Below, piece after piece: positions 3,282 to 58,170 of a stretch of DNA of 64,000 nucleotides (its first letter is position 1; each line of letters starts with the position of its first letter). The notes below the pieces were generated by a model that was not told the DNA's origin, searched no databases, and saw nothing but the letters and a program-made list of their open reading frames with translations. The stretch spans positions 10,502,001 through 10,566,000 of the forward strand of contig JAWHQI010000005.1 of assembly GCA_033032865.1 (NCBI GenBank). The letters are read 5' to 3'. This DNA is from Dactylorhiza incarnata (taxonomy: Eukaryota > Streptophyta > Magnoliopsida > Asparagales > Orchidaceae). Position numbers and translations under genes: made by a program.

Positions 3282-3991
3282 GGACCCATTGGCTCCGTCT
3301 TCATCATTCTCTTGAGATCCAGAATTCCAGAGCTTCGTGCCACAACATAGAGAGGAAGGTTCAGAGAGATACTCCCACAAATCCATGAAGGCTTAAGGAG
3401 ATCCGTGGAGAAGATTTCAACACGCGTCATCGTGACGAAAGACCGCATCGACTATGATCATACTCTGCGTTTTCATTTACTTCTCCAAGAGATCCACATA
3501 GAGGGAGTTTTTATATTATTGTCTTTTTATTTCACATCTTTTCTTGTAATCGTGTATTAAATTCGCCTCGTGTTGGCGACTAGGTCTGGGTAGGACTTAG
3601 GGCAGAAATTTGCCTCATATTGGCGACTAGGTCTCGGGTGTAGGTCTAGGGGGTGCTCGAGGCCATATCCAGGGAAGGGTTGGCTAAAGAGGCTTGAGGC
3701 CGTATCCGGGGAAGGATCGGCTAAAGCCAATCGGTTCGTGGGGATACGAGTCGTTATAGAAAACAAAAAGAGTCTTTCTATTAGCTTTGATTTCTAGCTT
3801 CGATAAGAGATCAAGTTTTGTAATCATGCTTCTCAAGTTAATAAAATCATGTCTTTACTTTTACTTCACTTGATTTGTCTTGATCTTCTCTGGTTTAATA
3901 GTCAAAGCTTTTTCAAAGTTATTCAAAATATATTATAAGTTTTTAAAACCCTTATTCACCCCCCCCTCTAAGGCCGCCTACTGATCCAACA

Positions 3992-10244: not shown

Positions 10245-11425
10245 TGTTGGACATGTGTGTCACATCCCTGTGTTTGAGAATAACAAATCCCAAATTGTTT
10301 TTGATCTTGCTTGTCGTGTGTTTATAGTGTGCAGGAACTATAGGTGCAATACTCTACAGGTAGAAAGTAGCTTGGAACCAACAAACTGAACTAAAGCACT
10401 ACCGCCAGTGCTAGAGGCTACCGTAGGTGCTAGCACTACCGCCTAGCGCTAGCTTAAGTTCGTGTACAATGCCACGCCGTGACGGTTTCATAACCGCTTC
10501 TACACGAACACTACCACAGGCGCTAGGAGCTACCGCAGGCGCTAGCGAGAAGTTCTATAAATTGGAGCTTTCTTTCTCATTTTGGCTATCCATCCCAGAG
10601 AGATTGATTGTGCCACAATTCTATTGTTGTTATGCTGCCGAAGATGGATCTCCCACAAAAAGCTTAAGGAGAATTCTGGAGGAGGACTACGTCACGCTAC
10701 ATCCGAAGGACGATCGCTTTGACCTCGCTCATACTATAGCGATCCTTCATCTCCGACTTTAGAAGATCTCATATAATGAGTTTTTATTATTGTTATCATT
10801 ATTTTCATTCCATATATTATTGTAATTTTTGTATTAAATTCTCCTTGTGATGGCGACTAGGTCCTTGCACAGCTTAGGGGGTAATTCGTCGCGTGAGTTG
10901 GCGACTAGGTCTAGGAGGTTAGATCTAGGGGGTGCTTGAGGCCATATCCGGGGAAGGATTGGATAAAGCGGCTTGAGGCCATATCCGGGGAAGGATTGGC
11001 TAAAGCCAACCGGTTTGTGGGGATACAAGTCGGTATAGAAAAAGAAAAGATATTTACTTTTGTACGCCTCCGATTTCTAGCGATACTGAAATCAAATTTA
11101 TGTAAACACTTTTTCATATAATACAATCATGTCTCTTTTGTGTTTACTTGATTTCTTTCATTTGGCATAAATTTTACTATATTGGTTACTAAGATTTCAA
11201 TTCAAATCACTTTATCTAAATTGTTTATTTTAAATCTCTTTTATCATAAAACAATTTAGCACTTGTTTCTAAATTCTAAAATTGGAAATTACAATATTCT
11301 CTTCCTTTAGCTAAATTGTTATTTTGCTCTCTCTTACTAAAACCAATTTAGTCATTTTCATAAAATTATACAAAGAATTTTATTCCCTTATTCACCTCCC
11401 TTTAAGGGCGCCTATCGATCCAACA
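10245..11425 (+). repeat. 5' LTR of element C
   Basis: 1181 bp, TGTTGGACATG...GATCCAACA. It carries GGCGCTAG-type palindromes (10390-10545), a TATA box (10556), and a GC-rich leader with paired arms such as GTCGC/GCGAC and ATCC/GGAT (10846-11035). The 111-codon open frame at 10427-10762 is LTR sequence repeated in the other LTR, not a gene. Confidence 0.9.
10556..10562 (+). promoter_or_regulatory. TATA box of the C 5' LTR
   Basis: TATAAAT, 11 bp after the palindromic run GGCGCTAGCG. The copy in the 3' LTR is at 17009-17015. Confidence 0.65.
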
Positions 11426-16685: not shown

Positions 16686-17879
16686 TGTTGGACATGTGTG
16701 ACACATCCCTGTGTTTGAGAAGAACAAATCCCAAATTGTATTTGATCTTGCTTGTCATGTGTTTATAGTGTGCAGGAACTATAGGTGCAATACTCCATAG
16801 GTAGAAAGCAGCTTGGAACCAACAAACTGAACTAAAGCACTACCGCCAGTGCTAGAGGTTACCGCAGGCGCTACCGCTACCGCCAATACTACCTCCTGGA
16901 GCTAGCTCATGTTCGTGCATAATGCCACGCCGCAATGGTTTCATAACCGCTTCTACACGAACACTACCGCAGGCGCTAGGAGATACCACAGGCGCTAGCG
17001 AGAAGTTCTATAAATTGGAGCTTTCTTTCTCATTTTGGCTATCCATCCCAGAGAGATTGCTTGTGCCACAATTCTATTATTATTATGCTGCCGAAGATGG
17101 ATCTTCCACAAAAAGCTTAAGGAGAATTCTGGAGGAGGACTACGTCACGCTACATCCGAAGGACGATCGCTTCGACCTCACTCATACAACAACGATCCTT
17201 CATCTCTGACTGAAAGATCTCAAATAAGGAGTTTTTATGATTATTATATTTATTTTCATACCTTACATTATTGTAATTTTTGTAGTAAATTTGCCTTGTG
17301 TTGGCGACTAGGTCCTTGCGCGGCTTAGGGGGTAATTCACCGCGTGAGTTAGCGACTAGGTCTAAGAGATTAGATCTAGGGGTGCTCGAGGCCATATCCG
17401 GGGAAGGATTGGCTAGAGCAGCTTGAGGCCATATTCGTGCAAGGATTGGCTAAAGCCAACTGGTTTGTGGGGATACAAGTCGGTATATAAAAGGAAAAGA
17501 TATTTACTTTTGTACGCCTCAGATTTCTTGCGATATTGAAATAAAATTTATGTAAACACTTTTTCATACAATACAATCATGTCCCTTTTTGTGTTTACTT
17601 GATTTCTTTCATTTGGCATAAATTTTACTATATTAGTTACTAAGCTTTCAATTCAAATCACTTTATCAAAATTGTTTATTTTAAATCTCTTTCATCATAA
17701 AACAATTTAGCACTTGTTTCTAAATTATAAAATTAGAAATTGCAATATTCTCTTCCTTTAGCTAAATTGTTATTTTGCTCTCTATTACTAAAAACAATTT
17801 AGTCATTTTTATAAAATTATAAAATGAATTTTATTCCCTTATTCACCGCCCCCTTCTAAGGGCGCCTATCGATCCAACA
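16686..17879 (+). repeat. 3' LTR of element C
   Basis: 1194 bp, closely matching 10245-11425 in every segment, with scattered substitutions. TATA box at 17009-17015. Confidence 0.9.
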
Positions 17880-17884
17880 GTTTG

Positions 17885-20303: not shown

Positions 20304-20782
20304 TGTTGGGAATATTGCCCTCAATGTTCCCTTTATTTGAAGAGGCATCACTCACAATGCAAAGTACATATTGTATTTGATAAACCCAAATTTTCATCAT
20401 GACTGTGCAGGGTTTAGATATTCCAAGGATTGGAATAATGTGTGTGGTTCATTGGTTGAACTGCTGAGAAGAACTCTCTGTCCCAACGGAACTGCTGAGA
20501 CGAGGCCAGGAACCACTGAGAAGGGGTCTGCCTCAGCCGAGATGTATATAGATAAATTCCACTGAGAAGACAATCTGTGTCAGCGGATCCACTGAGACCA
20601 TGACAGCTTAACCACTGAGATGGAAGACTGTCTCAATCCAACCGCTAAGACAGATTCAAATCAGGAAGACGACACCGACGGGATTTTCTTTTGGCGCAAA
20701 TATCTGTTAAGGGTAGATAAAGTGTTCTATCATGTTCCAAAGTGTCAGGGCCCTTTCTAAGAGTCGTCGAGGATAAATGAAG

Positions 20783-20790
20783 TATAAAAG
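20783..20790 (+). promoter_or_regulatory. TATA box of the F 5' LTR
   Basis: TATAAAAG; the matching site in the 3' LTR is 55710-55717. The CTGAGAC motif array lies upstream. Confidence 0.65.
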
Positions 20791-21105
20791 ATCAACTTAA
20801 GGCACTTTCAGAAGAGCCGGTTGGTGTGCTAAAAGTGTTAGAGCCATTACTGTTCCATTGATGGATTTCATGAACTCTCTCGTTCTGCTTCCATAACCAG
20901 CAAGAAGAATCAAGGAGGGAAGATATCTCTTCTATTTTGAAGAGCAAGGTGATCCTCTTTCATCTACTGTAGAGAAGGATCAGTTAGGAGCAGGTCTGAA
21001 GATTACTTTCAGCCCAACTTTAAGATTGCATCAGCTGTGCATAATCAACAGAAGACTTCAAACCAATGTTGTCCACTATTGTAAGCTAAAACTTATACTC
21101 ATTTT

Positions 21106-21400
21106 AGGAACTGTATAGTCTGAGCTTGTAAGGCATTGTGCCTGAGTTTGTAGTGTTGCTGAACCTGAGTTGTAGAAATGTTGAGCCTGAGATTGGTAAG
21201 GCTGTAGAGCCTGAACTGTAGGTCATTTTGCCTGAGAAGTAGGGCTTCTTTATAGGCCTGGGGTAGGAGATAGAGATTATCTCTGAGTTGTAGGAGTGGG
21301 AGCACTCTGAGTTAGTAGGGTTGTTAGGCCTGAGGTAGGGTTTGGAGCAAACCTGAGAGATCCTGAGGGATATGAGTTGTAAGCTCTTGAAGCAGAGATT
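21106..21400 (+). repeat. Tandem stem-loop array in the F 5' LTR
   Basis: About twelve units of 20-27 nt. Each is a short hairpin with its own stem, followed by a constant linker close to CTGAGTTGTAGG. Examples: GGCT-GTAG-AGCC, GAGTG-GGAG-CACTC, GGTTTG-GAG-CAAACC. It lies in the predicted transcribed leader, downstream of the TATA box. Confidence 0.8.
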
Positions 21401-21635
21401 GGAGGAATTTGTCTTGTCTAACACACTGCTAGAAAGGTATAGAGGGAAAGTTGACTACCCATAGACACCCTGTCTTGGGGAACCACTATAAATAACTATG
21501 TGCTTTCTGTGTTTGCTTGAGCTTTTGTTTATTATTCATTTACTGCAAGCAACAGTTAAGTAAAACTCAAAGAAACCTATTCACCCCCCCCCCCCCCTCT
21601 AGGTGAATTAGACTACTAACCTATAAATTATCAAG

Positions 21636-21647
21636 TGGTATCAGAGG
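21636..21647 (+). other. Primer-binding site of element F
   Basis: TGGTATCAGAGG, 2 bp after the 5' LTR; initiator tRNA-Met type. Confidence 0.85.
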
Positions 21648-21714
21648 GAGGTTGGTCAAAAATGACTTAACAGTCTGACCAGATCCTACATAGGTGTAGT
21701 CAAATCTGAAACCA

Positions 21715-24248
21715 ATGGCTACCAATGGAGTTCAGAAGGAGACGGGGTCAATGAAGCTGCCAATATGCAAAAAGGAAACCTTTGGCATTTGGAAGCAAAG
21801 GATAGGCTCTTCATGGAGGCCTCAGATCCTAGGATTTATATCACTATCCAGGAGGGTCCCTTTGTTGTCACAAAGCCCTCCACTATTAATCCTACTAGAC
21901 AGGTAGCCAATTCATATATTGAAATGACAAGGGATGACATTGCATTGGCAACAATGGATAAAGAGCTCAAAATATTATAGTCAATGCAATTGCTGATTCC
22001 ACCTTCCAAAACTTGGTACACTGTGAGACAGCAAAGGAGATGTGGGTTACAATAATAGTGTACATAGAAGAGACTAAAGAAGTGAGGGATGATAGGAAAA
22101 CCCTCCTTAATCAGGAGTATGGAGCCTTTAGGCAACAAAGCCTGGAATGCATAGTTGATTGCTATGAAAGATTTTTTAGGATAGTAAATGAGCTGAAGAC
22201 CTATGAAAGGGCCTTCACTCATTATGAGCTTAATGACAAATTCCATAGATCTCTAACTAGAGACTGGGATGCCAAGATCTGTGCCATCAGGGAGGTGGCA
22301 AAGTTGGGTGAGACTCCTCCTCATACTCTATTTGGAAAGCTGCTCTCTTATGAGATGCAACAATCTACAAAGAAGGAGGAGGACACATCCTCCAGGCCTC
22401 ATGCAAGGGATAAGACTATAGCCCTCAAGGCTGAGAGCTCAAAGAAGAGCAAGGTAAGGATGCCTTCACCTCAAAGGAGGGTTGCTGGCTCAGAAAACTC
22501 TGATCCCAGCTCATCTGATAGCAGCTCTTCTGATGAAGAGTTTACTGCCTTCTTAATACATTTCAAGAAGCTGGTGAGGAGGAAGAAGTGGAAGAACAAA
22601 CCTTCCACCTCCTCACATCCCATGAAGTATCACAGCAGATCTGAAAAGCAGCAACCCAAGGGGGACAGGTATCACTCTAAAGATATTTCAAATAATGTGA
22701 TTTGTTACTACTACAGCAAGCCTGGACATGTCATTGCTGACTGTCTAATCAAGAGGAAGGAGAAGGGTGATAAGAAGGCTCATCACCAAAAGGGAAGGAA
22801 GGGTGAAAATTCCTTCCTAGCCAAGAAGGAAAAGAGCTTGAGTGAATCTGAGTCATCATCCTCAGATTCAGATGAAGAAGAAGAAGCCTACGTTGGGTTG
22901 TTTGTAGCTGAAGAGGATGAGGACTATCCTACTGCAAAAGTGGGCATCAGGGCCCCTCTATCACACTCAGACAGCTACATAGAGGAGGATGAAGAAGATA
23001 TATAACATCATGACTTGATGGCCATAACTGATGATGATGAAGATAGTCAGGACAATCCCGATAAGGTATCAATTCCTATCAACCCTTCTTCTAATTATGA
23101 ATCTGTACCAGAATCTGAAGCATGCTCATCTTATGATATGAGTGGCTCAGATTCTGAAGTGGTTGTCAATCAATTGATTGACAAGTATGATGCTTTATTG
23201 GATGCTCTGAAGAAGAGCAAGAAGCTAGCCAAGAGGTAAGCTTAGGATATTGCGTCCCTTCAGTTGGCTAAGCAAGATTACACTAAGACACCAACCCTGG
23301 TGGATCAAATGAGTAGAAATATAAGCCAACTCAAGGGAATAACAATAGTCCAATTAAGCACCATTTCCCAAAAGAACAAGGTCATCAAGAACCTTGAGGA
23401 GAAGCTTCTGAAAGAGAAGAGCCTAGTGGCACAATTCTCCAAGCCCAAATCTGTACTACCAATCATTAACACCTTTTCCTACCAACCTAACATGAGAGGA
23501 CTAGGTTTCAAAAATTTGGCAGTGAGTGATGGGAGTGGAGAAAAGAGCAAGGCTAAGGCTAAGCCTCATACCACATTTCAAAAGGTGTTACTTCCCTCTA
23601 ACAGGTATAACCATGACAGTATATATGGTCACTAGAAAAATGGGAGTTCCTATAGGAGGGAAAACACTCCTTCTATAGTAGAAGAATGGGCATGGGGATG
23701 AGTGCTATGAATGCTCCCCATGAAGAAATTCAAATGGCCCATTCTGGAACAATTGTTTTTGGTGCTTCAGCCCCATCAGTCAAGAATAAGAATGCTAGCT
23801 CTTCAAGTCCCTACCAGCTAAGCCCTTGGCTACTGACAAGCTTGTTATCATGTCTAACAACTCAGCGTATGATGCCATCAAATCTTGCCTAACTACCAAG
23901 CCAAGACAAGCTGATGTCATTCAGACAATGACTGTCAAGACAGACCATAGATTGTCTTTCAGCCAAATCATTGCTGAGAGGAATAGGAAGAATGTTGTTG
24001 TATTCCCTCCTGAACTCAAGCATATTGATGCTACTTCTTCAAAGAATGTTCAGCAGAGAAGATACAATATTCATGAGAGTTGGTGTTGTGGCAAGGTGGG
24101 ACACTTTGCCATAGATTGTTGGCACAATCCCAATGTGCCAACTGCAAAGAAAAACTTTCCTGCAAAGGCCGCAGTAGGTGTGAAGTTATCTTATCATGCT
24201 AACAAAAGCCGAGGACCCATAACTAATTGGGCTCCTAAGGGTAAATAA
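21715..24248 (+). pseudogene. Gag of element F
   Basis: Copia/Sirevirus gag. It starts MATNGVQKETGSMKLP; the capsid domain (FGIWK; FMEASDPRIY; CETAKEMW; ALNDK-like region) passes through three frames before 22013, then reads openly to 23005. A Ser/Asp/Glu-rich stretch, a long coiled-coil-like region and a second basic region follow. Both zinc knuckles are defective: CYYYSKPGHVIADC (about 22706) has Tyr for the second Cys, and SWCCGKVGHFAIDC (about 24083) has Ser for the first. It ends RGPITNWAPKGK, the Sirevirus lead-in to protease. Further stops occur at 23003, 23237 and 23633. Confidence 0.8.
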
Positions 24249-25852: not shown

Positions 25853-27391
25853 TTCTTGAGCTTTCTATCACAGATGGAGCCCAAGATATTTGAAGAAGCT
25901 AATGAAGACACATTCTGGATTCAAGCAAATGCAAGAGGAGCTGCTTCAATTCAAGAGGTGCAAGGTTTGGAAGTTGATGCCAAAACTACAGGGACATAAT
26001 ATCATTGGCACCAAGTGATCTACAAAAATAAGATTGATGAGAATAGCACCATCATCAAGAACAAAGCCAGATTGGTGGCCAAGGGATACATTCAAGAAAA
26101 AGGTAGTGACTTTGATCAAACCTTTGCCCCAGTTGCAAGTTTAGAAGCAATAAGGTTGTTCCTTGTCTATGCTGCCCACAAGGGGTTCAAAGTGTACCAG
26201 ATGGATGTCAAATCAGCATTTCTGAATGGCAATCTAGAGGAAGAGGTATATGTGGATCAGCCCTCAGGTTTTGTTCATCCAACCCTCTCCTCTCATGTTT
26301 ATTTGCTTAGGAAAGCTTTATATGGTCTAAAGCAAGCCCCTAGGGCTTGCTATGAGACCTTGTCTAGCTTTCTCATCAAGAACAAACTCTTGAGGGGAAA
26401 GAGATAGTATATTGTTTCTTAGGGAAACAAAGGGCAAATGTCTCCAAGTCCAAATCTATGTTGATGACATAATATTTGGGTCTATAGATGACAACCTTTG
26501 CAAAAGGTTTGCCAACCTTATGCAGGGGGAGTTTGAGATGAGCAGTATGGGAGAACTCAAGTACTTCTTAGGCCTCCAAGTGAAACAGTCTGATGAGGGA
26601 ATTTTCATCTCTTATACCAAGTACACTAAGGAGCTTATTAAGAAGTTTGGGATGGAATCAGCTTCCACCATGAAAACTCCCATAGGGTCCAACATTTCCC
26701 TGGACAAGATTGAAAAGGGTAAGCACTTTGATGGGTCTATGTACAGGTGCATTATTGGGTCCCAGTTGTATCTGACTGCCAGTAGACCAGATATTATGTA
26801 TGCTACATGTGTTTGTGCTAGGTACCAAGCATGCCCTAAGGAATCTTATTACTCAGCTGCAAAGAGGATTTTGAGATACCTTAAGGGGAGGCAACATCTT
26901 GGCCTTTGGTACCCTAGGAACTATGATTTTGAGCTAATTTGCTTTTCAGATGCAGATTTTGCAGGTTGCAAAGAAGATAGAAAAAACACAATTGGAGCTT
27001 GTCAATTTCTAGGAAGAAGGCTGATCTCATGGAGCAGCAAGAAGCATACCATTGTGGCAATATCCATAGCTAAATCTGAGTACATTACTGCAGGAAGCTG
27101 TTGTGCACAATTAATGTGGATACAACATCAGCTGGAGGATTATAACCTCAAAGTAAGTAATTCTCCCATGTATTGTGACTCATCTAGTGCTATCTCTATA
27201 GCTAAGAATCTTGTCTCACATAGCAGGACTAAGCATATAGAGATAAGATATCACTTTATTAGAGAGCATGTTGAAAGTGAAGATATATGCCTTGAATTTG
27301 TCCCCACTGACAAACAAGTAGCTGATATCTTCATAAAGCCATTGGATGAGGCAAAATTTAATGCTTTTAAAATTGAGCTTAGTATGTTAAA
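25853..27391 (+). pseudogene. Reverse transcriptase-RNase H region of element F pol
   Basis: Copia reverse transcriptase: [43 protein letters not shown], then the catalytic QIYVDDIIFGS with both aspartates. A frameshift falls at 26400-26412 between fingers and palm, and two compensating shifts at 25925-26015. RNase H follows with FSDADFAG, KSEYI and CDSSSAI, retaining D, E and D. The frame runs into element G at 27392 and borrows a stop from it. The original stop lies beyond G, at 51873-51875, only a few codons after the insertion point. Confidence 0.85.
27387..27391 (+). repeat. Target-site duplication of element G
   Basis: TTAAA, repeated perfectly at 51861-51865. Confidence 0.9.
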
Positions 27392-27564
27392 TGATAAATA
27401 GTATTTATATAACTTTTTAATCGAAATTTTTGTAATTATTTAATATGAATTTTTCTTTTTATGTCAATTTTAGGTTATAAGTAGTTCTTTTATAATTTTG
27501 ATTCTAACTTAGCTTAATTTCAATTTTTGCAGAATTTGGGAGAAATTGGTGAAATTTATAAGTC

Positions 27565-54855: not shown

Positions 54856-55232
54856 ATTGATGTATATAGTTTTGTAGTAAATCAAATTGTAATTTGAAGT
54901 ATTTATCAACATATTAGCAACATGAAAATGAAACTTCTGTTGAAATTGATAGGTTGTGCTATAGGCTAACCCTAGTCAAAGCTTAAATGTTATTCACTAT
55001 TATTGTTTATATATACTGTGATGCCTAGACATAAATAGTTAACAATGTTATTATTTTGAAAAACAATGCTGTTATTATGTTGTCATGTACACAATCTGTC
55101 ATGACATTATCTGTAATGCCAAAGTAATGTTAACATTTATATGGTATGATAACATGAATGCTATGTAATACATTTACATGATAAGTTTTCATTTAATATG
55201 TATCCTAGCATAGAGGATGTTCTACCTTCTTC
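54856..55232 (+). other. 3' untranslated stretch of element F
   Basis: AT-rich, with repeated ATGTT/AACAT words and no gene. Confidence 0.6.
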
Positions 55233-55246
55233 AAATAGGGGGAGAT
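55233..55246 (+). other. Polypurine tract of element F
   Basis: AAATAGGGGGAGAT directly before the 3' LTR; same core as element D. Confidence 0.85.
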
Positions 55247-56563
55247 TGTTGGGAATATTGCCCTCAATGTTCCCTTGATTTGAAGAGGCATCACTCACAA
55301 TTCTAAGTACATATTGTATTTGATAAACCTAATTTTGCATCATGACTATGCATGGTTTAGATATTCCAAGGATTGGAAAAATGTGTGTGGTTCACTGGCT
55401 GAACCGCTGAGAAGAACTCTTTGTCTCAGCGGATCCGCTGAGACGAGGCCAGGAGCCACTGAGAAGGGGTCTGCCTCAGCTGAGCTACAGATAGACAAAA
55501 TCCACTGAGAAGATAATCTGTCTGAGCAAGATAGCTCAACCACTGAGACGTAAGATTGTCTCAGCCCAACTGTTGAGACAAATTTAAATCAGGAAGACGA
55601 CTCTGGCAGGATTTGCTTTTGGCGCAAATAGCTTTAAAGGGTAGAAAAGTGTTCTATCCTCTTCCAAAGTGTCAGGGCCACTTGTAAGAGCCATCCAGGA
55701 TAAATGAAGTATAAAAGATAAACTTAGGGCACTTTCAGAAGGGCAGGTTGGTGTGCTAAAAGTGTGAGAGCCATTACTGTTCCATTGATGGCTTTCAAGA
55801 ACTCTCTCCTTCTGCTTCCAAAACCAGCAAGAAGAATCAAGGAGGGAAGATAACTCTTCTATTCTGAAGAGCAAGGTGATCCTCTTTCATCTACTGAAGA
55901 GAAGGATTAGTTAGGAGTAGTTCTGAAGATTACTTTTAGCTCAGCTTCAAGATTGCATCAGCTGCGCATAATCAATAGAAGACTGCAAACCAATGTTGTC
56001 CACTGTTGCAAGCTAAAAATTATACTCATTGTAGGAACTGTGTAGTTCTGAGCTTATAAGACATTGTGCCTGAGTTTGTACGGTTGCTGAACCTGAGATG
56101 TAGGGATGTTGAGCCTGAGTTTGGTGAGGCTATAGAGTCTGAGCTGTGGGGCATTTTGCCTATGAAGTAGGGCTTCTTGATAGGCCTGAGGTAGGAGATA
56201 GAGGTGATCTCTTAGCTGTAGGAGTGGGAGCACTCTAAGATAGTAGGTTTGTAGGCCTGAGGTAGGGTTTGGAGCAAACCTGATAGATCCTGAGGGATCT
56301 GAGTTGTAAGCACTTAAAGATGAGATTGGAGGAGTTTGCCTTATTTAACAAACTGTTTGAAAGGTGTAGAGGGAAAGTGGACTACACATAGACACCATGT
56401 CTTGGGGAACCAATATAAATAATTATGTGCTTTCTGTGTTTGCTTAAGATTTTGTTTATTATTCATTTACTGCAAGCAATAATTAAGTAAAACTCAAAGA
56501 AACCTATTCACCCCCCCCCCTCCCCCCTCTAGGTGAATTAGACTACTAACCTATAAACTATTA
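55247..56563 (+). repeat. 3' LTR of element F
   Basis: 1317 bp, TGTTGGGAATATTG...AACTATTA. Contains the perfect 22-bp palindrome (55423-55444), a TATA box (55710-55717), a stem-loop array (56034-56320) better preserved than in the 5' LTR, and a C tract near 56510. Confidence 0.9.
56034..56320 (+). repeat. Tandem stem-loop array in the F 3' LTR
   Basis: Same array as 21106-21400. Perfect stems include GAACT-GTGT-AGTTC, GGTT-GCTG-AACC, GAGAT...ATCTC, GAGTG-GGAG-CACTC, GGTTTG-GAG-CAAACC and GATCC...GGATC, each followed by a CTGAG-GTAGG-like linker. Confidence 0.82.
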
Positions 56564-56673: not shown

Positions 56674-58170
56674 TGTTGGAACAAGGTCTTCCGCATCTCC
56701 TAAGTTTGATAATAACAAAAACTATGTGTATTTGATCTTGTGTGTTTAAGTGTGCAGGATAACAAAGTCTACATGACTCAAGGATTACATAAGAAGGTTG
56801 CCCCCAAGTTTAAGCCATCAAATCCAACACTCCCACTAGCGCCGGCGGTATCACCTAACGCCTAGCGCTAGCGCTAAGGAACAGATGAGAATGGATATTG
56901 GGTTCGACGAAAGTGATCTTGCGTTTGATGATCTTACGTTCGATGATCTTGCGTTCGACGAATTTCCGTTCGACGAATGTTGAAGCCCGCTCGACAAACT
57001 CTGGTTGACGAAATTGAGCTCGACGAATGTTGAAGCCTGACCGACGAATTGAGTTCGACAAAATTTCATTCGACGAACTAAAAGCGGCGCTCGACGAAAT
57101 TCTCATCACTGCGTTCGACGAAATTCGCTCGAGTAAATGTTAGCTATCGTTCGACGAACTATTAGCGGCGCTCGACAAAATGCTCATAACGGCGTTCGAC
57201 GAAAATTTGCTCGACGAACTCTTTGCTGCTTTCGATGAAATTTTGTTCGACAAATTGTTGTCTTAAGCGCAAATGCCGGGAGAACTTACAGAAGGAGATA
57301 GCGCCATGCAATATTCGATAGTGCAGGCGATAGCGATGAGCATAGTTGGCAAGAGAGAATTGTTTCCTCGGATTGAAGATTCTGCCATGTAGAATGTGTC
57401 CTAATATGGGATAGCGCCGGCGGTAGCACTAGCGCAGGCGCTAGCGCTAAGTCTATAAAAAGGACATCTTGGCTTCGTCTTCTCAATCCTCTTGAGATCC
57501 AGAATTCCAGAGCTTCGTGCCACAACATAGAGAGGAAGTTTCAGAGAGGTACTCCCACAAATCCATAAAGACTAAAGGAGATCCGTGGAGAAGATTTCAA
57601 CACACGTCATCATCGTGATGAAAGACCGCATCGACTACGATCATACTCTGCGTCTTCATCTACTTCTCCAAGAGATCCACATAGAGGGAGTTTTACATTA
57701 TTGTCTTTTTATATCACATCTTTTCTGTAATCGTTTAGTAAATTAGCCTCATGTTGGCGACTAGGTCTGGGTAGGACTTAGGGAAGAAATTCGCCTCATG
57801 TTGGCAACTAGGTCTCGGGTGTAGGTCTAGGGGGTGCTCGAGGCCATATCCGGGAAGGGTTGGCTAGAGCGGCTTGAGGCCGTATCCAGGGAAGGATCGG
57901 CTAAAGCCAACCGATTCGTGGGGATACGAGTCGGTATAGAAAACAAAAAGAGTCTTTCTATTCGCTTTGATTTCTAGCTTCGATAAGAGATCAAGTTTTG
58001 TAATCATGCTTCTCAAGTTAATAAAATCATGTCTTTACTTTTACTTCACTTGCTTTGTCTTGATCATCTCTAGTTTAATAATCAAAGTTTTTTCAAGTAT
58101 TAAAAAATATAATATAAGTTTTTAAAACCCTAATTCACCCCCCCCTGTAAGGGCGCCTACCGATCCAACA
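56674..58170 (+). repeat. 5' LTR of element B
   Basis: 1497 bp, TGTTGGAACAAGG...GATCCAACA. Longer than the A LTR because its TTCGACGAA array (56905-57255) is expanded. GCGCTAGCGCT palindromes, TATA box at 57454-57461, GC-rich hairpin leader (57735-57930), C tract near 58136. Confidence 0.9.
57454..57461 (+). promoter_or_regulatory. TATA box of the B LTR
   Basis: TATAAAAA, just after the palindromic run AGCGCAGGCGCTAGCGCT. Confidence 0.7.

Follow-up and report, generated by a model that had tools for sequence, protein, structure and literature searches.

How can a tandem repeat keep its linkers and its base pairing while its stems change in sequence, and what could such a repeat do in the long terminal repeats (LTRs) of a retrotransposon? 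The question is raised by a locus in the 64-kb stretch of DNA analysed here (the window), for which the original prediction had claimed about twelve tandem stem-loops with differing stems and a constant linker in both LTRs of one element. The element and its arrays comprise the following features:

20304-21633, + strand: 5' LTR (F LTR), with TG...CA ends and the primer binding site after it
20783-20789, + strand: TATA1, a mid-LTR TATA-like box (GTATAAAAG), 36% into the LTR
21107-21397, + strand: hairpin array of the 5' LTR, 13 units with CTGAG..GTAGG-like linkers
21487-21494, + strand: TATA2, a TATA-like box (CTATAAATAA) past the array, 89% into the LTR
21584-21597, + strand: poly-C tract (C14), resembling the Sirevirus integrase signal; the LTR ends at 21633
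21635-21648, + strand: primer binding site (TGGTATCAGAG)
22013-23005, + strand: gag open reading frame of copia type (PF14223)
26412-27401, + strand: C-terminal piece of the reverse transcriptase (RT; PF07727, RVT_2)
55232-55246, + strand: polypurine tract (PPT; AATAGGGGGAGAT) preceding the 3' LTR
55247-56563, + strand: 3' LTR of the same element, ending in TA, not CA
56034-56324, + strand: hairpin array of the 3' LTR, 13 units

The two LTRs differ at 131 of 1309 aligned bases and are flanked by ACCTT (at the 5' LTR) and AACTT (past the 3' LTR), which match at 4/5 positions and represent a possible target duplication. The 34 kb separating them contain other repeats that are probably nested. 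The best two matches of the RT piece in a homology search are proteins of the orchid Platanthera zijinensis (73% identity), which makes an orchid the probable host. The PPT, whose octamer we take to be of Sirevirus type, is joined to the start of the 3' LTR (AATAGGGGGAGAT followed by TGTTGG, 55234-55252). According to the available sections of PMC2829016, Sireviruses have a conserved PPT that meets the 3' LTR in an AT/TG junction and a poly-C signal with ~21 bp from the signal to the LTR end. With its PPT-AT/TG junction, poly-C signal, TATA box near mid-LTR and copia-type gag and RT, the F element would be assigned, judging by its sequence features, to the Sirevirus-like Ty1/copia elements.

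Array units were cut by hand, yielding 13 per LTR instead of about twelve, with a typical unit running GTAG, G-stem, loop, stem'-C, TGAG. An exact linker GAG is present in 11/13 units of the 5' copy and 9/13 of the 3' copy, and an exact GTA in 11/12 and 8/12 linkers, respectively. Two of the five stems originally named as perfect, GAGTG/CACTC and GGTTTG/CAAACC, are so in both LTR copies; the other three, GAACT/AGTTC, GGTT/AACC and GATCC/GGATC, are perfect in the 3' LTR only. When 3' halves were swapped among units, none of 20,000 permutations reached the summed pairing energy of the 5' array (-43.9 vs. a mean of -18.6) and one of 20,000 that of the 3' array (-46.0 vs. -17.7), confirming tandem stem-loops with differing stems and a constant linker in both LTRs. 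Leaving out units 1, 12, and 13, the least regular ones, 16 and 37 of 20,000 permutations reached the observed pairing (5' and 3' copies), and under a linker-only segmentation with nine units per copy 4 and 11 of 2000 swaps did so. Arm swaps on the minus strand were equally telling (2 and 1 of 20,000). A test anchored exactly on TGAG alone was not significant when G-U counted as a pair (3820 and 1477 of 20,000); it gave 0 and 630 of 20,000 with Watson-Crick pairs only, and 0 and 17 of 20,000 with A-C replacing G-U.

Measures of the array as a whole were not outstanding. Whole-array MFE compared with dinucleotide shuffles yielded z-scores of 0.28 (5') and -1.89 (3'), and hairpins of at least 5 bp occur at densities of 6 and 5 per 300 nt, with at least 5 being found in 58 of 637 window stretches (top 9%, not unique). 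Arm-swapped arrays were as low in whole-array MFE as the 5' copy in 166/300 cases at unlimited span, 62/300 at span 40 and 7/300 at span 22, and as the 3' copy in 5/300, 3/300, and 0/300 cases. At unlimited span, 4/10 and 3/11 array units have a pairing probability of at least 0.5. No Rfam family matched at gathering score on either strand of the 64-kb window, and a fixed-spacing pattern search returned no match in the window. What distinguishes the array is thus local complementarity specific to each unit and not the stability of the whole, and the presence of paired, unit-specific hairpins with constant linkers is almost certain.

LTRs of one element are identical at insertion, and here they have since diverged at 12/130 arm, 6/65 loop, and 14/95 linker positions, arms no less than loops; we therefore do not count the LTR pair of the window as two independent observations. 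For this reason, the search was widened to the 3.27-Gb genome (3184 contigs; 8393 first-look candidates, 40 scored, 45 matches listed). The double-linker pattern CCTGAGNTGTAGG-N6..14-CCTGAGNTGTAGG occurs 2774 times (1333 + 1441) and CTGAGNTGTAGGA-N8..14-TCTGAGNTGTAGG 4593 times (2339 + 2254) in this genome, and the reversed controls of both patterns have no match in the same 3.27 Gb. Between the same linkers, stems elsewhere include GACC/GGTC, GATCAG/CTGATC, GATCTG/CAGATC, GACCAG/CTGGTC, GGCT/AGCC, GAGGA/TCCTC, and GGTT/AACC. From 70 parsed sources, 53 with distinct unit sets of at least six units were subjected to 2000 swaps each. An array's own pairing beats the swap mean in 53/53 arrays, and fewer than 5% of swaps reach it in 51/53 (exceptions: L080, 104 of 2000 swaps; L089, 115 of 2000), although these arrays are not independent, comprising 38 rows of the F family, some LTR pairs and, among the other 15, several near relatives. 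The strongest array (L125) contains 19 units and pairs at -105.8 vs. -42.5 (sd 8.1) kcal/mol when swapped. Nine other arrays have whole-array MFE z-scores of -0.7 to -3.6 vs. shuffles, and under hairpin competition 1 to 5 of their 9 to 19 units keep a probability of at least 0.5. In contrast to the F array with its varied stems, some arrays (L116, L118, and L132) are homogenised, nearly the same GGCT/AGCC stem recurring many times every 22 nt.

Covariation by column was analysed for 282 of the 291 distinct units, in length classes of at least eight. Pairing exceeds every shuffle at length 16 (n = 42; 82.5% paired vs. 62.4% swapped), length 17 (n = 20; 91.7% vs. 77.7%), and length 18 (n = 39; 90.6% vs. 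80.6%); length 14 is slightly above its shuffles, lengths 15 and 19 about equal the shuffle maximum, and length 13 (n = 38) stays within the swap range. Among 91 distinct cores, standard pairs are present at positions 4 and 5 (n = 90) in 87 and 86% and at position 6 (n = 50) in 82%, compared with 59, 54, and 52% after swapping, and position 3, which is largely fixed by the search patterns, does not differ from swapped cores. At least four pairs are formed by 171 of the 291 distinct units, and these carry 20 distinct 4-nt 5' arms. Swap and column tests hence extend beyond one element the earlier claim that linkers and pairing are kept while stem sequence is not, and pairing has very probably been maintained by compensatory change in the replicating lineage.

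The original prediction had also proposed aligning many LTR copies and reading covariation per unit. We aligned 40 array copies of the F family (the two in the window and 38 others) and counted 47 pairs in 10/13 units, excluding units 7, 10, and 13 with unclear pairing. Standard pairs are formed in 1761 of 1868 cells. Stems hardly vary, with two double changes, each in one copy, and within-family covariation is therefore uninformative. Rare variants found in one or two copies (23 G-U, 19 A-C, 53 other mismatch, and 2 Watson-Crick cells) look neutral; variants in at least three copies amount to 5 G-U, 2 A-C, 5 other, and 1 Watson-Crick. Thus, the proposed alignment shows pairs kept in sequence, and stems too invariant within the F family for covariation to be demonstrated.

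One unit, TGTAGG-x-CATTATTG-y-CTGAG, illustrates a double change at the level of the genome. Its G..C state is present at 442 sites (229 + 213) and its A..U state at 389 (178 + 211), compared with 44 sites (26 + 18) in the G..U state and at least two A..C sites among the double-linker matches listed. A partner 3-60 kb off on the same contig exists for 65 of the first 100 A..U sites listed and for 4/44 G..U sites. The paired states hence seem to be carried by replicating elements, the G..U state having mostly arisen in single LTRs after insertion; template switching that converts both arms together may give a similar picture.

A sister family (family E) provides a comparison within the window, its Sirevirus-like LTRs having four or five hairpins that follow a TATA box:

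57745-57950: family E hairpins, LTR end near 58170
3565-3771: family E hairpins, LTR end near 3990
10848-11045: family E hairpins, LTR end near 11425
17300-17497: family E hairpins, LTR end near 17880

Four hairpins were modelled, excluding a fifth, upstream one that differs between two subfamilies. Across 44 pairs, 97.1% of cells are paired, and three pairs show double changes in the four LTRs, which fall between the two subfamilies; the 37-nt tandem units of the family add two double-change pairs in eight rows. Slid controls reach 24-47% pairing, a comparison favouring the unslid version, as the structure was drawn from the same sequences. Shuffles attain the number of covarying pairs in 176/500 and 144/500 cases, a weak control with few related rows, and the score in 5/500 and 2/500 cases. 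An AATAAA lies downstream of the hairpins. Family E carries covarying hairpins at the same place in the LTR as the F array.

Which strand carries the structure was addressed via mismatches within otherwise paired stems, where G-U exceeds A-C by 47:14 in 179 distinct units (47:10 in 135 units under a looser filter). The ratio is 35:7 in F-family loci and 15:7 in others, and 18:10 at the level of distinct contexts (p 0.18). Scores of the minus strand are similar, both in the window and in nine other arrays. The G-U excess is suggestive of a sense-strand bias; strand evidence favours sense RNA, and the array probably acts in that form.

The array had been placed downstream of the TATA box, and accordingly in the leader of the genomic RNA. 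This holds with respect to TATA1 (20783); a second box, TATA2 (21487), lies just past the array, and therefore the leader location depends on the promoter used. TATA2 could also be a poly(A) signal. With at most one mismatch, GTATAAAA (TATA1) precedes the first linker by 180-480 nt in 50/53 loci and CTATAAAT (TATA2) lies 60-260 nt past the last linker in 50/53; both flank the array in 47/53, compared with 26% (TATA1) and 20% (TATA2) of random window stretches of equal length, each box taken alone. The loci tested include 39 of the F family, one being the window's own 3' LTR, and among the 12 non-F loci listed TATA1 is found in 10/12 and TATA2 in 12/12. The surroundings of TATA2 (GGAACCACTATAAAT...TGTGTGCTTTCTG; window positions 21475-21510, L118, and L125) look strongly conserved across subfamilies, exceeding the flanks of TATA1.

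We propose that, in the sense RNA of the element, the array may form a modular structure in which each 20-27-nt unit would fold as a 4-7-bp hairpin, and constant CUGAG-(N0-4)-GUAGG linkers, together with GAG-bearing loops in some units, would connect the hairpins. Beyond the pairing observed, selection in the replicating lineage would retain pairing and linkers, letting stems drift by compensatory change. Judging by the motifs, RNA started at TATA1 would include the array and RNA started at TATA2 would be devoid of it. In the barley element BARE, the TATA1 RNA, which alone carries R, is packaged, and the TATA2 RNA is translated, as described in the accessible part of PMC3735527; by analogy, the TATA1 RNA of the F element could be the packaged genomic RNA. 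Similar unpaired purine-rich sites spaced by hairpins might then form a multivalent platform for Gag/nucleocapsid, marking genomic RNA for packaging or dimerisation. We assign this whole model a probability of roughly 0.38, and the packaging or dimerisation platform itself is put forward tentatively. More doubtful is the generalisation that a modular RNA code is widespread in the LTRs of plant retrotransposons: selection would act on nothing but linkers, some loops, and pairing in long arrays (with as many as 19 parsed units), and these arrays, placed between two promoters, would tag genomic RNA for packaging, apart from translated RNA.

Other explanations have to be weighed against the packaging model. 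Chance, with the constant GG and CC ends of a G/T-rich tandem repeat mimicking stems, would agree with the unremarkable whole-array MFE and hairpin density in the window, and GG..CC ends do pair in any unit; the arm-swap controls, however, retain these ends and rarely or never reach the observed pairing, so that pure chance was rejected and its probability is negligible. The array might also act as DNA, TATA2 being the main promoter, the linker a repeated factor site, and the dyad stems palindromic boxes like those of Sireviruses. The repeated Sirevirus motifs are palindromic, many-copied, and situated shortly upstream of a TATA box (PMC2829016, sections available), and TATA2 follows the last linker by 60-260 nt in 50/53 loci. 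Minus-strand pairing that is about as unit-specific as that of the plus strand, and a TGAG-anchored signal lifted more by A-C than by G-U, likewise suit a cis-regulatory array. The known motifs nevertheless have one sequence per element, whereas the stems here vary and a factor reading sequence would not keep their pairing; the G-U excess over A-C (47:14 by unit vs. 23:19 among F-family rare variants), which is not significant by context, also argues for RNA, and we regard the cis-regulatory reading as unlikely.

A mutational by-product, in which tandem duplication and template switches made at imperfect palindromes by the reverse transcriptase copy one arm onto the other and so maintain pairing that has no function, would account for the variable unit number, for arrays homogenised with a repeated GGCT/AGCC stem (L116 and L118), and, by two-sided conversion, for a G..U state that is rarely common to neighbouring copies. 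It sits poorly with linkers, some loops, and an array place between TATA-like boxes that are kept across subfamilies, and with a sister family having other hairpins at the same place, together with G-U states and double changes, and appears quite improbable. An RNA structure with another job, be it translational control via the long leader, formation of the 3' end (should R include the array), or feeding or evading host small-RNA pathways, is not very probable either. In its favour, small RNAs are drawn to clusters of palindromes in the LTRs of maize Sireviruses, according to the part of PMC10760457 at hand (citing Bousios 2016). TATA2 is also AATAA-like, and AATAAA follows the family E hairpins, yet nothing in this analysis ties the array to translation or 3' ends. 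The stems of miRNA-like hairpins are far longer than those of the array, which counts against the small-RNA variant.

The packaging model touches a process known for few elements, the separation of genomic RNA from mRNA in plant LTR retrotransposons, and with the array sitting between two conserved TATA-like boxes, a role in packaging can be tested directly. Thousands of copies in a single genome, with varying stems and retained pairing, amount to a covariation experiment of a kind that nature rarely provides, and the array offers a structural hallmark for finding such elements. Retroviral packaging leaders contain several hairpins and unpaired purine-rich sites. The array resembles them in having several hairpins in a genomic leader with purine-rich single strands; unlike their few distinct hairpins, it repeats one kind of module, with as many as 19 parsed units joined by a constant linker. 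The proposed packaging role is one by analogy. BARE shares with the F element its copia type and two TATA boxes per LTR, the upstream one making the packaged RNA in BARE; the available portion of PMC3735527 describes no hairpin array between the boxes, and two RNA pools would be an extrapolation for F-type elements.

In the literature searched at the level of titles and abstract beginnings, no comparable array was described, which does not prove its absence. Among viral contigs, the RT query found no relative, alone or as an alignment; the linker pattern picked out 72 stretches, none with a gag/RT relative by tblastn and with a best E of 0.2 to the LTR. Six of the viral-contig stretches (L016, L023, L033, L044, L053, and L063) hold at least four linker-like words in 300 nt, which we take as chance. 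Two contigs assigned to Labilibacter sediminis CG51 (L073 and L074) encode a plant-type copia polymerase, a probable plant contamination, and no comparable array was recognised in them by eye and with few motif and repeat searches.

The nearest known likeness is provided by the repeated motifs of Sirevirus LTRs, which are many short palindromic units near a TATA box in an LTR of the same type (Bousios et al. 2010, PMC2829016, as far as accessible). In that account, they repeat a single sequence within each element and precede the mid-LTR TATA box, in contrast to the varying stems and constant linkers of the downstream F array (PMC2829016). The array was thus rejected as a Sirevirus repeated motif, as its sequence is not constant and it follows TATA1, even if it precedes TATA2. 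By eye, the F LTR additionally has CTGAGA..TCTCAG palindromic boxes upstream of TATA1 (20440-20680 and 55390-55620), candidates for the Sirevirus motifs, which are palindromes with a CGG-CCG core. The word CTGAG occurs both in these boxes and in the linkers of the hairpin array, and the two may share an origin or a binding factor.
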